DNA from: Bacteroidetes bacterium UBA4009
Lineage (GTDB): Bacteria > Bacteroidota > Bacteroidia > NS11-12g > UBA9320
DNA: 13,499 bases
Assembly (NCBI GenBank): GCA_002384205.1
Contig: DGBH01000096.1
Span: 15,332-28,830 of the forward strand
Reading direction: 5' to 3'
The position numbers and the translations under genes were made by a program. The notes beneath the pieces were generated by a model. The model was given only the letters and a program-made list of their open reading frames with translations, was not told where the DNA came from and ran no database searches. Shown here piece by piece: positions 2,186 through 5,709 of this stretch (position 1 is its first letter; the number at the start of each line of letters is the position of its first letter).

Positions 2186-2929
2186 ATGGCACAACCACAG
2201 TCAAGAGAAGAGTTCATTCAGTATATTTTAAGGAAAATTGGTGCACCAGTTATCCAAATCAACGTTGCTGAAGAACAAATTGACGACCGAGTAGACGAAG
2301 CTGTTTCTTTCTGGAGAGATTACCATTATAATGGTAGCCAATTAGTTTATTTAAAGCACATAATTACAGAACAAGATAAAGTAAATGGTTGGATTCCATT
2401 ACCAGAAAAATTGCTAGGTATATCTAATATTTTTAATTTTGATACCTCAATCTCTATGGGCGGCGGTATTTTTAACGTCCAGTATCAATTTGTTCTAAAT
2501 AACGTACAAGACATGTCAAGCTATAGCATGGTCAATTATTATATGACTATGCAGCACATCGAGTTTATGCAAGAAATGCTTGTTGGTAAACCGATTATAC
2601 GTTATAACAAACACGTAAACAAAGTATTCATTGATAACGATAAAGAACGCTGGACTGTTGGTACGTATATCATCGTTGAAGCATACGACATTATTGATCC
2701 GGACGAATACTCAGATGTATGGGGCGACCGTTGGTTGCAGAATTACGCGTCAGTTCTTGTACGTGAACAGTGGGGTCTTAACCTAACTAAGTTTACAAAT
2801 ATGCAATTAGTTGGCGGTGTTTCTTTTAACGGCGAGCAAATACTAGCTGAAGCAAGAGCCGAAAGAGAAAAGATGGAAGAAGAAGCTATTAATAATTTGC
2901 AGCCACTAACATACAATTTTATTGGGTAA
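2186..2929 (+). CDS. gp13: Neck protein gp13
   Basis: This is the T4 gp13 neck (head completion) protein family, in the form found in marine T4-like phages. Signatures include an N-terminal helical pair with YILRKIGAPVIQINV and QIDDRVDEAVSFWRDY, then YLKHIITEQDKVNGWIPLP, a central PIIRYNKHVNKVFIDND and a C-terminal VWGDRWLQNYASVLVREQWG. The length of 247 residues is close to that of marine homologues. gp13 forms a ring with gp14 that seals the DNA-filled head and provides the docking site for the tail. AAGGGGA (2174-2180) overlaps the previous stop and sits five bases before the ATG. The gene is followed by gp14 after only three bases, so translation of the neck pair is coupled. Confidence 0.9.
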   Translation: MAQPQSREEFIQYILRKIGAPVIQINVAEEQIDDRVDEAVSFWRDYHYNGSQLVYLKHIITEQDKVNGWIPLPEKLLGISNIFNFDTSISMGGGIFNVQYQFVLNNVQDMSSYSMVNYYMTMQHIEFMQEMLVGKPIIRYNKHVNKVFIDNDKERWTVGTYIIVEAYDIIDPDEYSDVWGDRWLQNYASVLVREQWGLNLTKFTNMQLVGGVSFNGEQILAEARAEREKMEEEAINNLQPLTYNFIG

Positions 2930-2932
2930 ATC

Positions 2933-3616
2933 ATGGCAACCAATGTATACTTTAGCAATTACGACAACTTTAATGAGCAGAATTTAATTGATGATCTCGT
3001 AATTGAATCTATTCAGATCTTCGGCCTCGATGTAACCTACATAAGCGGGTTGTTCAATAACATCGATAGTATCTTTAACGAAGATGATACACCTCTTTAC
3101 GATGAGATGTATTCTTTTGAAGTATATGTTAAGAACGTTGATGGCTTTGAAGGTGAAGGCGACTTCCTATCTAAGTTCGGCTTACAGATCAGAGATCAAG
3201 TTACGTTTACTGTTGCGATTAGAACATTCGAAAGATTTGTTACAAGAGTTAACCAAACTAAAGTTCGCCCTAGAGAAAACGATATTATCTGGCTTCCTTT
3301 AAACCAGAAAATGTACAGAGTAACATACGTAGAACATGAAAGTGTTTTCTATCAGTCTGGCTCTCTACAAGTATACGATATCAAATGCGAATTAATGGAA
3401 TATTCAAACGAAAGATTCGATACAGGCCGCTACGATATAGATCATTATTTCGATGATATTAATTCTACTAGTACCTTTGTGACTACGCTTGAAGATGTGG
3501 CAAACAACGATGTAATGGCACAAAACCTTGAGTTCGAACAGTTAGCAGACGACATTTTAGACTTTAGCGAGTTCGATCCGTTCAGCGAAAACATTACTAT
3601 TCAGGATAACAACTAA
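2933..3616 (+). CDS. gp14: Neck protein gp14
   Basis: This matches the T4 gp14 neck protein family. It has LIDDLVIESIQIFGLDVTYI near the start, the acidic SIFNEDDTPLYDEMYSFEVY, then the diagnostic VDGFEGEGDFLSKFGLQIRD and a beta region with VRPRENDIIWLPLNQKMYRV and VFYQSGSLQVYDIKCELMEY. The 227 residues end in an acidic tail (DDILDFSEFDPFSENITIQD). gp14 works with gp13 at the head-tail interface. The ribosome site is poor (only GGGT three bases before the ATG), so translation probably depends on ribosomes finishing gp13. The stop overlaps the gp15 start by one base (TAATG at 3614-3618). Confidence 0.9.
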   Translation: MATNVYFSNYDNFNEQNLIDDLVIESIQIFGLDVTYISGLFNNIDSIFNEDDTPLYDEMYSFEVYVKNVDGFEGEGDFLSKFGLQIRDQVTFTVAIRTFERFVTRVNQTKVRPRENDIIWLPLNQKMYRVTYVEHESVFYQSGSLQVYDIKCELMEYSNERFDTGRYDIDHYFDDINSTSTFVTTLEDVANNDVMAQNLEFEQLADDILDFSEFDPFSENITIQDNN

Positions 3617-5709
3617 TGGCAATTGCTAATTATTTCTATAACGAAACGACTAGAAGATATGTCGCGTTATTTGGCACTATTTTCAATCAACTCAAAATTG
3701 AAAGAAAAGATAATGCCGGTGTGTTAATACAGTCTATGATTGTACCGTTGTCCTATGCGCCATTCCAAAAAGTTCTTTCAAGATTAAATGAAGATCCTGA
3801 CCTTATTAATAGCAGAAGACCTGCTATGACTTTGCCGCGCATGTCTTTTGAAATTACAAGCTTGTCGTATGATCCAGTGCGCAAAATTGCGTCAACACAA
3901 AAGATGCGCAAAGCATCAAAAGCAGAGTCAAACTCTTCTCGTAATTTTGTTTACGCTTCTGTGCCATACAATTTAGAATTCTCTTTGTATATTATGACAA
4001 AGTATTCAGAAGATGCAACAAAACTTATGGAACAAATCATTCCGTTCTTTACACCCGATTGGACTGTTACTGCTAAAATGGTGCCAGACTTAGATCCTAT
4101 TGATATTCCTATTATTTTAAATAGTGTTACTACAGAAGATCTTTACGAAGGTGATTACGAGACACGACAAACTATTCTGTACACTCTTACTTTTACTTTA
4201 AAAGGTTGGTACTTCGGTCCTGAGAAAACAAAGAAAGTTATCAAGTTCATTGATGTCGATATGTCTACCACCACTGCTTCTAATGCAACTCCAGAAGAAA
4301 GAGTTATAATTAAGCCAGGTCTTGATGGAAATGGCAATCCGCTTTACGAAGACGGCATAACTGTTACGGCAACATCTTCTCTCTCAAACGGAGCTGTATC
4401 TGGAATTACTATTGTAAATGATGGTGAAAACTACGATCCAAACAATAGCATCCCAGTTACTGTTGCTGCACCAAGTTCTTTAAACGCACAAATTACTCCC
4501 GTTATCACTAACACTTCTATAACTTCATTCAGTATTCCCGAAGCAGGTGGATACTATTCTGCTTCTCCTGCCATAGTAATTAGTGCTCCAGACTCTCCTG
4601 TAACCACCGCCAGTGGCACTGCAGTGCTCTCTGGCGACACCGTTGGATCTATTGGTATTACTAACAGCGGTACATATTATAACTCAGCCACCGTCTCTAT
4701 ATCCGAGGCACCTGTAAAATCACAATATATTAAGTTTGGTGACGACGCGCTCTATCATGCAAACCATACTGATGTAATTCTCGACCATGTAACAACATAT
4801 AATTTAGTCACTGCTGGTACTGGTTTTGCTATAGAATTTTGGATTTACCCTGAAGAGTTCCACGCTAACGATTCTCATGTTCTAAATTTCGCCGGTACTA
4901 CTATGAGAATTGAAATAGAAGCTTCAGGAGAACTTGTATATCGGCCAGTTCTTAATAGTGCACCGACAAGATCTACTCCAGAAGTCTTAGTTTTAAACCA
5001 ATGGAATCATTGCCGCCTTGAACATTATGGTGCAACAGCAAGATGGTTAGTAAACGGTACTGCAGATGCTGGGGCTGCTGCACCGCAGGGTTTCTTAATT
5101 GGCGGTGGTACAAGTGTGTATATTGGCGAACGTTCTACGAATGAAAGAAGCTTTTTAGGAGCTTTAGATAACTTGACTATTAGCCAAATCTCTGGATTAA
5201 CTGCAGTTGGATCGTATGTAGTACCAACCACTGCCCAGACTGGTACATATTTTACATCTAATTTTGATAAAGATAATGCTACAGCACTTGTGACTGTGTC
5301 AGCCGGCGAAGTAACAGCAATTACTATGACAAATGGTGGTGCTAATTATGCCAACACGACACCGGAAATCACTTTTTCGGCGCCTACCGGTGTCGCTGCA
5401 GATTATCAAGCAACTGCTACGGCAGTTCTAACTGACGGTTCTGTATCTTCAATTAGTATAAATAACAATGGTAAGTTCTATATTTCAGCGAGTGCTACTA
5501 TAGATACAGTTGTTGCTAACACTGCAACAGCTACTATCTCTATCGGTGTTGATGGCCAAGCTACGGGTATTACAGTAACCAATGCTGGCTCTGGCTATAG
5601 ATCTCCACCGCTAGTTACTGTTGGTGACCCAGCAGCCATATCAGTAGCTTACCAACAAATTGAGTTCGATGATGACTGGGGTATTATTACAATATTTGAG
5701 GATGTATAA
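3616..5709 (+). CDS. gp15: Tail sheath stabiliser gp15 with large inserted LamG/repeat region
   Basis: Residues 1 to about 215 are a normal gp15 (tail sheath stabiliser and completion protein, which caps the contractile tail and joins it to the neck): NYFYNETTRRYVALFGTIFN at the start, PLSYAPFQKVLSRLNEDPDL, PRMSFEITSLSYDPVRK, YNLEFSLYIMTKYSEDATKL, IIPFFTPDWTVT and LTFTLKGWYFGP. The last 22 residues (QIEFDDDWGIITIFEDV) look like the usual gp15 C-terminus. Between them lie about 430 extra residues: three beta repeats (about 257-367), a LamG/concanavalin-like domain (about 369-525), and three more repeats (about 560-675). T4 gp15 is about 270 residues, so 697 is far larger than the family norm. 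One frame runs through without a stop, so this is a genuine enlarged protein and not a frameshift join. The start codon overlaps the gp14 stop; AGGA lies nine bases upstream. Confidence 0.88.
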   Translation: MAIANYFYNETTRRYVALFGTIFNQLKIERKDNAGVLIQSMIVPLSYAPFQKVLSRLNEDPDLINSRRPAMTLPRMSFEITSLSYDPVRKIASTQKMRKASKAESNSSRNFVYASVPYNLEFSLYIMTKYSEDATKLMEQIIPFFTPDWTVTAKMVPDLDPIDIPIILNSVTTEDLYEGDYETRQTILYTLTFTLKGWYFGPEKTKKVIKFIDVDMSTTTASNATPEERVIIKPGLDGNGNPLYEDGITVTATSSLSNGAVSGITIVNDGENYDPNNSIPVTVAAPSSLNAQITPVITNTSITSFSIPEAGGYYSASPAIVISAPDSPVTTASGTAVLSGDTVGSIGITNSGTYYNSATVSISEAPVKSQYIKFGDDALYHANHTDVILDHVTTYNLVTAGTGFAIEFWIYPEEFHANDSHVLNFAGTTMRIEIEASGELVYRPVLNSAPTRSTPEVLVLNQWNHCRLEHYGATARWLVNGTADAGAAAPQGFLIGGGTSVYIGERSTNERSFLGALDNLTISQISGLTAVGSYVVPTTAQTGTYFTSNFDKDNATALVTVSAGEVTAITMTNGGANYANTTPEITFSAPTGVAADYQATATAVLTDGSVSSISINNNGKFYISASATIDTVVANTATATISIGVDGQATGITVTNAGSGYRSPPLVTVGDPAAISVAYQQIEFDDDWGIITIFEDV
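4384..4716 (+). repeat. Gly/Tyr beta repeats R1-R3 within gp15
   Basis: Three repeat units of about 25-30 residues follow the pattern V-x-S/G-I-x-I-x-N-x-G-x-x-Y-x-(3-6)-P/A-x-V-x-I-x-A-P. They are R1 (GAVSGITIVNDGENYDP, then VTVAAP; residues 259-286), R2 (TSFSIPEAGGYYSASPAIVI; 303-325) and R3 (VGSIGITNSGTYYNSATVSI; 343-362). This glycine-tyrosine repeat is common in tail and fibre proteins of T4-like phages. Similarity is at protein level; the DNA units have diverged, so they are not recent duplications. Confidence 0.75.
4720..5190 (+). other. LamG/concanavalin-like domain embedded in gp15
   Basis: Residues about 369-525 of gp15 carry the hallmarks of a LamG-type jelly roll (Laminin_G_3-like). 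These are QYIKFGDDALYHANHT at the start, then TGFAIEFWIYPEEFHANDSH, a strand-rich middle with LNFAGTTMRIEIEASGELVY, NQWNHCRLEHYGATARWLVN, GGTSVYIGERST and a closing FLGALDNLTISQ. The 'F-x-I-E-F-W-I-Y-P', 'W-x-H-x-x' and 'G-x-L-D-x-L-x-I' positions are the usual family landmarks. Such domains bind glycans or proteins, so a role in surface adhesion or virion decoration is possible. No ligand can be inferred from the sequence. Confidence 0.75.
5290..5637 (+). repeat. Gly/Tyr beta repeats R4-R6 within gp15
   Basis: Three further units of the same repeat follow the LamG domain: R4 (VTAITMTNGGANYANTTPEI; residues 566-585), R5 (VSSISINNNGKFYISASATI; 610-629) and R6 (ATGITVTNAGSGYRSPPLVT; 649-668). 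With R1-R3 they bracket the LamG domain symmetrically, three on each side. Unit R5 has F-Y in place of G-Y; R6 is closest to the consensus found in other phage tail proteins (GSGY-x-x-P-P-x-V). Confidence 0.75.

Follow-up and report, generated by a model that had tools for sequence, protein, structure and literature searches.

The window, i.e., the whole stretch of 13,499 nucleotides that was analysed, constitutes the terminal 13.5 kb of a 28.8-kb phage contig (C74) binned with a 2.18 Mb bacterial assembly, and it encodes an enlarged version of gp15, the tail sheath stabiliser of T4-like phages. A LamG-type jelly roll bracketed by six beta repeats is inserted in this protein immediately ahead of its C-terminal anchor; the arrangement described in an earlier sequence-only reading was confirmed, and the interpretation given there was supported in part. 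The same site is empty in a close relative and holds two repeats without LamG in others, a related cassette is present in gp14 of other phages, and the insert is under purifying selection.

The insert in gp15 and its alleles

The core of the protein was matched by Pfam PF16724 (E 3.2e-66; residues 6-227 of 697), phrog_227 (E 7.8e-75) and T4 gp15 in the PDB (E 5e-21), and by this domain it belongs to the T4 gp15 family. Within the insert, the Laminin_G_3 profile matched residues 390-523 with 54.1 bits against a curated cut-off of 27.6. An AlphaFold2 model built with 98 sequences (mean predicted local distance difference test score, pLDDT, 83.3; predicted template modelling score, pTM, 0.49) confidently placed three repeats, a jelly roll and three further repeats, each repeat made up of a short strand and two longer ones. 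Both the profile and the comparison of the predicted fold therefore uphold the LamG/concanavalin A-like jelly roll that had been recognized from the letters alone. The core and anchor were modelled with low confidence (anchor blocks, pLDDT 44-51) and, because the pTM is low, the model does not give the relative placement of core, insert and anchor. The anchor motif [DNE][DNE][DN]W was found inside the final 20 residues of 94 of the 98 sequences.

Pentraxins rank first in the fold comparison of the jelly roll. The pentraxin signature is HxCx[ST]Wx[ST]; it occurs in none of the 98 sequences, that of the window included, and the label was rejected. Chains of botulinum-type toxins or of the partner protein of these toxins among the Foldseek and VIA matches were likewise taken as a likeness of fold only, through the shared jelly roll. 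With the LamG part by itself (181 amino acids, aa) as query, a sequence search of the PDB returned no match, and one with repeats 1-3 returned chance-level matches only (E 0.17 and worse). The repeats were scored with a hidden Markov model (HMM), which may overlook diverged copies. At the DNA level, repeats inside the gp15 gene are limited to two short families of two copies each, and no inverted repeats were found within it; there is thus no sign of a mobile-element boundary. The Gly/Tyr repeat was also seen in 16 copies in P0141, a 1186-aa protein with a signal-peptide-like start, and hence it may extend beyond phage virions.

Searches for long relatives, which favour full-length matches, yielded 192 and 251 proteins with 120 listed from each, and the gp15-domain proteins pooled from the two listings numbered 140 (P0001-P0140, the window's own included). 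Six repeats and LamG were present in 139 of these listed proteins and a size of 692-707 aa was found in 138, the exceptions being P0122 (623 aa), which begins within the core, and P0095 (429 aa, on a contig of 1,669 bases), which stops within LamG. A search of IMG/VR, biased in the same manner, found relatives on 378 stretches; among the 80 kept, all 68 complete gp15 proteins were of 695-707 aa with LamG, and the adjacent gp14 was of 225-230 aa in each of 66 complete cases. Given its presence in nearly all of the listed long proteins, the insert is an established trait of a clade, a group of marine T4-like phages. A search for short proteins found 1,187 relatives, of which 120 were listed. Five were below 255 aa and are probably fragments (P0201 among them is 100% identical to the window), while 114 of the 115 of at least 255 aa had no repeat and one had two. 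The sequence-only reading had held that the insertion would not be special if most relatives carried it; this applies to the long proteins but not to the short ones.

The claim that an otherwise ordinary gp15 has been interrupted is borne out by P0154 (270 aa; core 80% identical), in which the core runs directly into the anchor and which the window gp15 exceeds by 427 residues at this point. In P0221 and L254 (356 aa) and in L268, L275, L293, L295, L301 and L302 (352-370 aa), the same site holds two repeats, and LamG is absent. Different inserts or alternative endings occur there in L318, L325 and L327 and in forms of 301-307 aa. Among these, P0153 and P0155-P0163 (301-303 aa; cores 78-81% identical) show a different C-terminal ending, in those printed, and represent a third allele. 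A quick tree was built from 129 cores, of which 118 differ (three of 132 candidates were removed by a core-length filter, and Mosig, described below, was assigned manually to the full-cassette state). On it the repeats-LamG-repeats state requires seven changes, with at least three forced by starred branches and gains indistinguishable from losses. In one clade of 33 (Shimodaira-Hasegawa approximate likelihood ratio test, 97), 18 rows with the full cassette, 15 of them different, are mixed with 15 empty ones, 14 of them different.

Mean pairwise identity among the 98 sequences was 0.71 for the core, 0.48 and 0.50 for the two sets of repeats, 0.48 for LamG and 0.70 for the anchor. The ratio of nonsynonymous to synonymous substitution rates (dN/dS), pooled over 20 non-overlapping pairs, was 0.087, 0.204 (repeats 1-3), 0.139 (LamG), 0.201 (repeats 4-6) and 0.079 for the same parts in order; with values this low throughout, the insert is maintained by purifying selection.

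Related cassettes in gp14 and in Pelagibacter phage Mosig

The sequence-only reading made no claim about gp14. When a collection of 50,697 phage records was searched with the insert by tblastn, 13 were matched, all labelled Synechococcus phage or cyanophage, and the four with the highest coverage are gp14 genes; Mosig was absent from these matches at E 1e-3. As in the window gp15, repeats and LamG separate the core from the C-terminal motif in the gp14 proteins of S-SSM7 and Sf-FS3 (762 and 763 aa), with 26% identity across 81-82% of the insert. The whole-insert HMM matched S-SSM7 gp14 with E 6.5e-49, and Pfam LamG was found slightly under the cut-off in S-SSM7 (E 7.6e-6) and above it in Sf-FS3 (2.9e-7). 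They differ from the window in that the cassette resides in gp14, their gp15 (359-360 aa) having another, non-repeat insert. Among the best 80 of 242 IMG/VR stretches related to S-SSM7 gp14, LamG was detected by the family HMM in 71 of 71 complete proteins, and in the S-RIM2 set 48 of the 71 complete gp14 proteins had two repeats. With L361 (725-3001), an S-RIM2-like cyanophage gp14, six FG-GAP_2 stretches (E 1.9e-69) interrupt the first of two repeats. This propeller, together with the two-repeat alleles lacking LamG, supports the earlier suggestion that LamG was placed into an existing repeat array, although the order of events is unproven. A different, non-repeat insert precedes the C-terminal motif in the gp14 of L296, L298, L299 and L320 (318-325 aa), and a Pfam scan of that insert from L296 and L320 gave no match. 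A structure model of gp14 (alignment A3, 33 rows, first row L174) had a mean pLDDT of 33 and was not used.

Pelagibacter phage Mosig EXVC030M (MT647606) has a gp15 of 532 aa that resembles that of the window in joining a core to a repeat, a jelly-roll-sized segment and a repeat. Its residues 251-530 were matched by the whole-insert HMM with E 3.7e-15, calculated for 2611 sequences (the best among 200 shuffles reached 3.8), and the top BFVD fold match is a 532-aa protein, equal to it in size. The cassette of Mosig differs in following the anchor, DADDDFG at residue 241 (of 532), and in having a single repeat on each side, and its LamG segment was detected neither by Pfam nor by the LamG-only HMM of the window family. 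The 77 complete gp15 proteins of its kept IMG/VR relatives are all ordinary (255-269 aa).

At 330 loci with complete gp14 and gp15, repeats or LamG were present in neither protein at 144, in gp14 only at 111, in gp15 only at 75 and in both at none (123, 95, 55 and 0, respectively, of 273 distinct protein pairs). These counts are a pattern rather than frequencies or a test, as the loci are related and similarity-picked and the contigs were partly fetched twice. They cover repeats and LamG only; S-SSM7-type phages combine the gp14 cassette with a different gp15 insert, and L327 combines gp14 repeats with another. Enlargement of gp15 as such is not rare, since BFVD also lists enlarged gp15-like proteins of Campylobacter phage CPt10 (456 aa) and Vibrio phage V09 (434 aa). 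The 2,400-aa 'T4-GC_117' protein of metaG-MbCM1, whose record bears a metagenome name, did not enter the evidence.

Gene order and surroundings

The genes gp13-gp14-gp15-gp16-gp17-gp18-gp19-gp20 were identified in the T4-type order in the window by Pfam and PHROG (Table 1); gp16 is followed by the large terminase, sheath, tube (under the Pfam cut-off) and portal genes.

Table 1. Coordinates of gp15, its parts and the adjacent neck genes in the window
Feature	Position	Strand	Basis
gp13 neck protein, 247 aa (309 in T4 gp13)	2186..2929	+	phrog_211
gp14 neck protein, 227 aa, ordinary size, without cassette	2933..3616	+	PF11649 E 2.2e-28; phrog_460
gp15 (tail sheath stabiliser / tail terminator), enlarged, 697 aa	3616..5709	+	Pfam, PHROG, PDB, gene order
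gp15 core, residues 1-230	3616..4305	+	
Inserted segment, approximately residues 244-676	4345..5643	+	Comparison with empty allele P0154
Beta repeat 1, residues 249-286	4360..4473	+	Repeat HMM 31.8 bits; strands 251-257, 260-268, 281-283
Beta repeat 2, residues 290-325	4483..4590	+	Repeat HMM 36.6 bits; predicted strands
Beta repeat 3, residues 331-365	4606..4710	+	Repeat HMM 34.8 bits; predicted strands
LamG/pentraxin-like jelly roll, residues 369-552	4720..5271	+	
Beta repeat 4, residues 554-590	5275..5385	+	Repeat HMM 41.7 bits; predicted strands
Beta repeat 5, residues 598-632	5407..5511	+	Repeat HMM 42.5 bits; predicted strands
Beta repeat 6, residues 636-672	5521..5631	+	Repeat HMM 40.6 bits; predicted strands
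Conserved closing tail/anchor, residues 676-697, ends ...QIEFDDDWGIITIFEDV	5641..5706	+	Identity, motif
gp16	5709-6167		Gene order

A 110-aa protein with weak similarity to BppU_N (1843-2175; E 1.4e-4, under the cut-off) immediately precedes gp13, in the position of T4 wac. Positions 1-669 hold the end of a longer open reading frame. It has a cupin of the mannose-6-phosphate-isomerase type (PF01050, E 1.3e-21) and, more weakly, a part that resembles nucleotidyltransferases (PHROG match, E 2.8e-9), its upstream frame being partly masked. Further upstream on the contig (C74:1-15400, 3-10534, minus strand, L087), a tryptophan halogenase is encoded with four radical-SAM-like proteins (one above the Pfam cut-off and three below), a 2OG-Fe(II)-oxygenase-like protein, also below the cut-off, and a 194-aa orphan with a C-terminal tail rich in Cys, His and Tyr; together these genes resemble a cassette for peptide modification carried by a T4-like phage. 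The three relatives found in GTDB genomes all come from one Rhodobacteraceae bin, and among the named matches of the gp15 core those to Sinorhizobium phages come first; an alphaproteobacterial host is likely.

Placement at the neck and possible functions

Gp15 of T4 is a hexameric ring on the tail tip, according to the accessible portion of PMC3004832, and its residues 203-245 touch residues 178-256 of gp14 in the virion, as stated in the available text of a preprint (PMC12270204). The FDDDW anchor of the window aligns with IDPEDW at residue 242 of T4 gp15, and hence the insert site corresponds to approximately T4 residues 241/242. The gp14 cassettes lie between the core end (about 167 of 762 in S-SSM7 and 178 of 390 in S-RIM2; T4, about 177-181) and the C-terminal motif (positions 750 and 370, respectively). 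Judged from these alignments, the two kinds of insert would map onto two faces of one joint, since both sites align to the T4 gp14-gp15 contact.

Other neck decorations are known from the available portions of the respective papers. The neck passage structure of lactococcal 936 phages similarly carries binding modules, one of which, a carbohydrate-binding module, bound host cells (PMC6669499), but it is a separate BppU/BppA-type collar protein of siphophages, whereas the cassette of the window is an insert in gp15, the tail terminator. The D domain of the Milano collar protein gp13 is also jelly-roll-like, surrounds the neck and resembles glycan-interacting proteins, but belongs to a separate protein that forms C15 rings (PMC10491603). 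T4 fibritin (wac), the protein of the whiskers and collar, shares the location and accessory nature and differs in being a separate trimeric protein. Concanavalin A domains have been noted in unidentified structural proteins of pelagimyophages (PMC7029224, in part). No publication on LamG in gp14 or gp15 was found among the titles and abstract starts listed by searches of an open-licence library and, as far as those listings show, the placement of a lectin-like domain within gp15 or gp14, alongside alleles that lack it wholly or in part, is new.

The reading that we prefer is an accessory role in binding at the neck, for which we put the chances at about even. The enlarged gene would yield a working ring protein whose core and short C-terminal anchor (FDDDWG) dock as T4 gp15 does, with the 427-residue insert leaving the ring immediately ahead of the anchor. 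We infer that, if the protein is hexameric as in T4, six jelly rolls, each held by two short arms of beta repeats, would encircle the head-tail joint and face outward. They may weakly bind surface or extracellular glycans or glycoproteins, holding the virion near cells until the tail fibres engage, and would be dispensable. Several observations weigh against this proposal. Outward display cannot be derived from a model with such a pTM and so weak a core and anchor, and the T4 contacts come from a preprint seen in part. The identity of LamG tracks that of the core (r 0.77) and its dN/dS is below that of its repeats, and therefore it is unlike a fast-swapping host-range determinant. Moreover, a carbohydrate-binding module at the end of the neck fibre in Anabaena phage A-1(L) did not bind the host of that phage, according to the available text of PMC10966104, and the 936 module, despite its binding in vitro, is called a poor binder in that of PMC6669499.

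The conserved LamG would also suit a collar that binds the phage itself, i.e., the folded long tail fibres, the head vertex, the sheath or gp13, and replaces the fibritin whiskers and collar of T4. This we rank second, after the binding function at the neck, and regard as less likely than not. Fixed length (138 of 140 listed proteins, the remaining two cut short) and the position of LamG as the most constrained part of the insert are consistent with it, as are the non-fibritin neck structures described for Milano and A-1(L) in the accessible parts of PMC10491603 and PMC10966104, and T4 wac found no match in nine records, a search without positive control in which seven were possibly fragmentary virus contigs. 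The gp13 proteins of the window, phiM12, Mosig, S-RIM2 and S-SSM7 have nothing that corresponds to residues 171-190 and 197-216 of T4 gp13, a stretch in partial overlap with the fibritin-binding domain III (190-239) of the T4 protein. However, these gaps fall within a poorly conserved part of the alignment and do not track the cassette, because phiM12 shows the same gap yet has no neck cassette, and close relatives of the window gp15 lack the insert altogether.

A structural clamp or spacer that has no ligand and stiffens the gp14-gp15 joint or guards the top of the sheath is improbable. Judged by alignment, the cassettes do lie at this contact, in one protein or the other and in both in none of 273 distinct pairs, and the Milano collar links sheath to neck, its disulphides adding stability (PMC10491603, in part); but the conservation of a lectin-type fold and the presence of an FG-GAP propeller in the gp14 of L361 speak for binding domains rather than spacers, and the two-repeat alleles are far shorter. 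That the module is a functionless passenger spread by recombination between virion genes is very improbable: related cassettes in several proteins and sites and the interleaving of presence and absence on the tree would fit, but the dN/dS of 0.14-0.20 and the strictly conserved length would not.

Since an insert of this kind also occurs in the adjacent gp14 of related phages, the phage neck looks like a site for hanging extra binding domains. More tentatively, and with somewhat less confidence than in the binding function itself, the gp14-gp15 joint of marine T4-like phages may generally serve as a hot spot for exchangeable adhesin cassettes, in which repeat arrays sit by the conserved C-terminal anchor of gp15 or gp14 and LamG or an FG-GAP propeller is set inside the array; the neck would then be a second adhesion organ that evolves through module exchange independently of the tail fibres. 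Mosig and HTVC008M, with and without the cassette, respectively, infect the same host strain, Pelagibacter ubique HTCC1062, and this pair, together with the alleles that are empty, hold two repeats or are full (the cores of empty and full forms being approximately 80% identical), makes both function and origin directly testable. If true, abundant marine phages would have ligand-binding domains built into essential neck proteins that are usually treated as plumbing.
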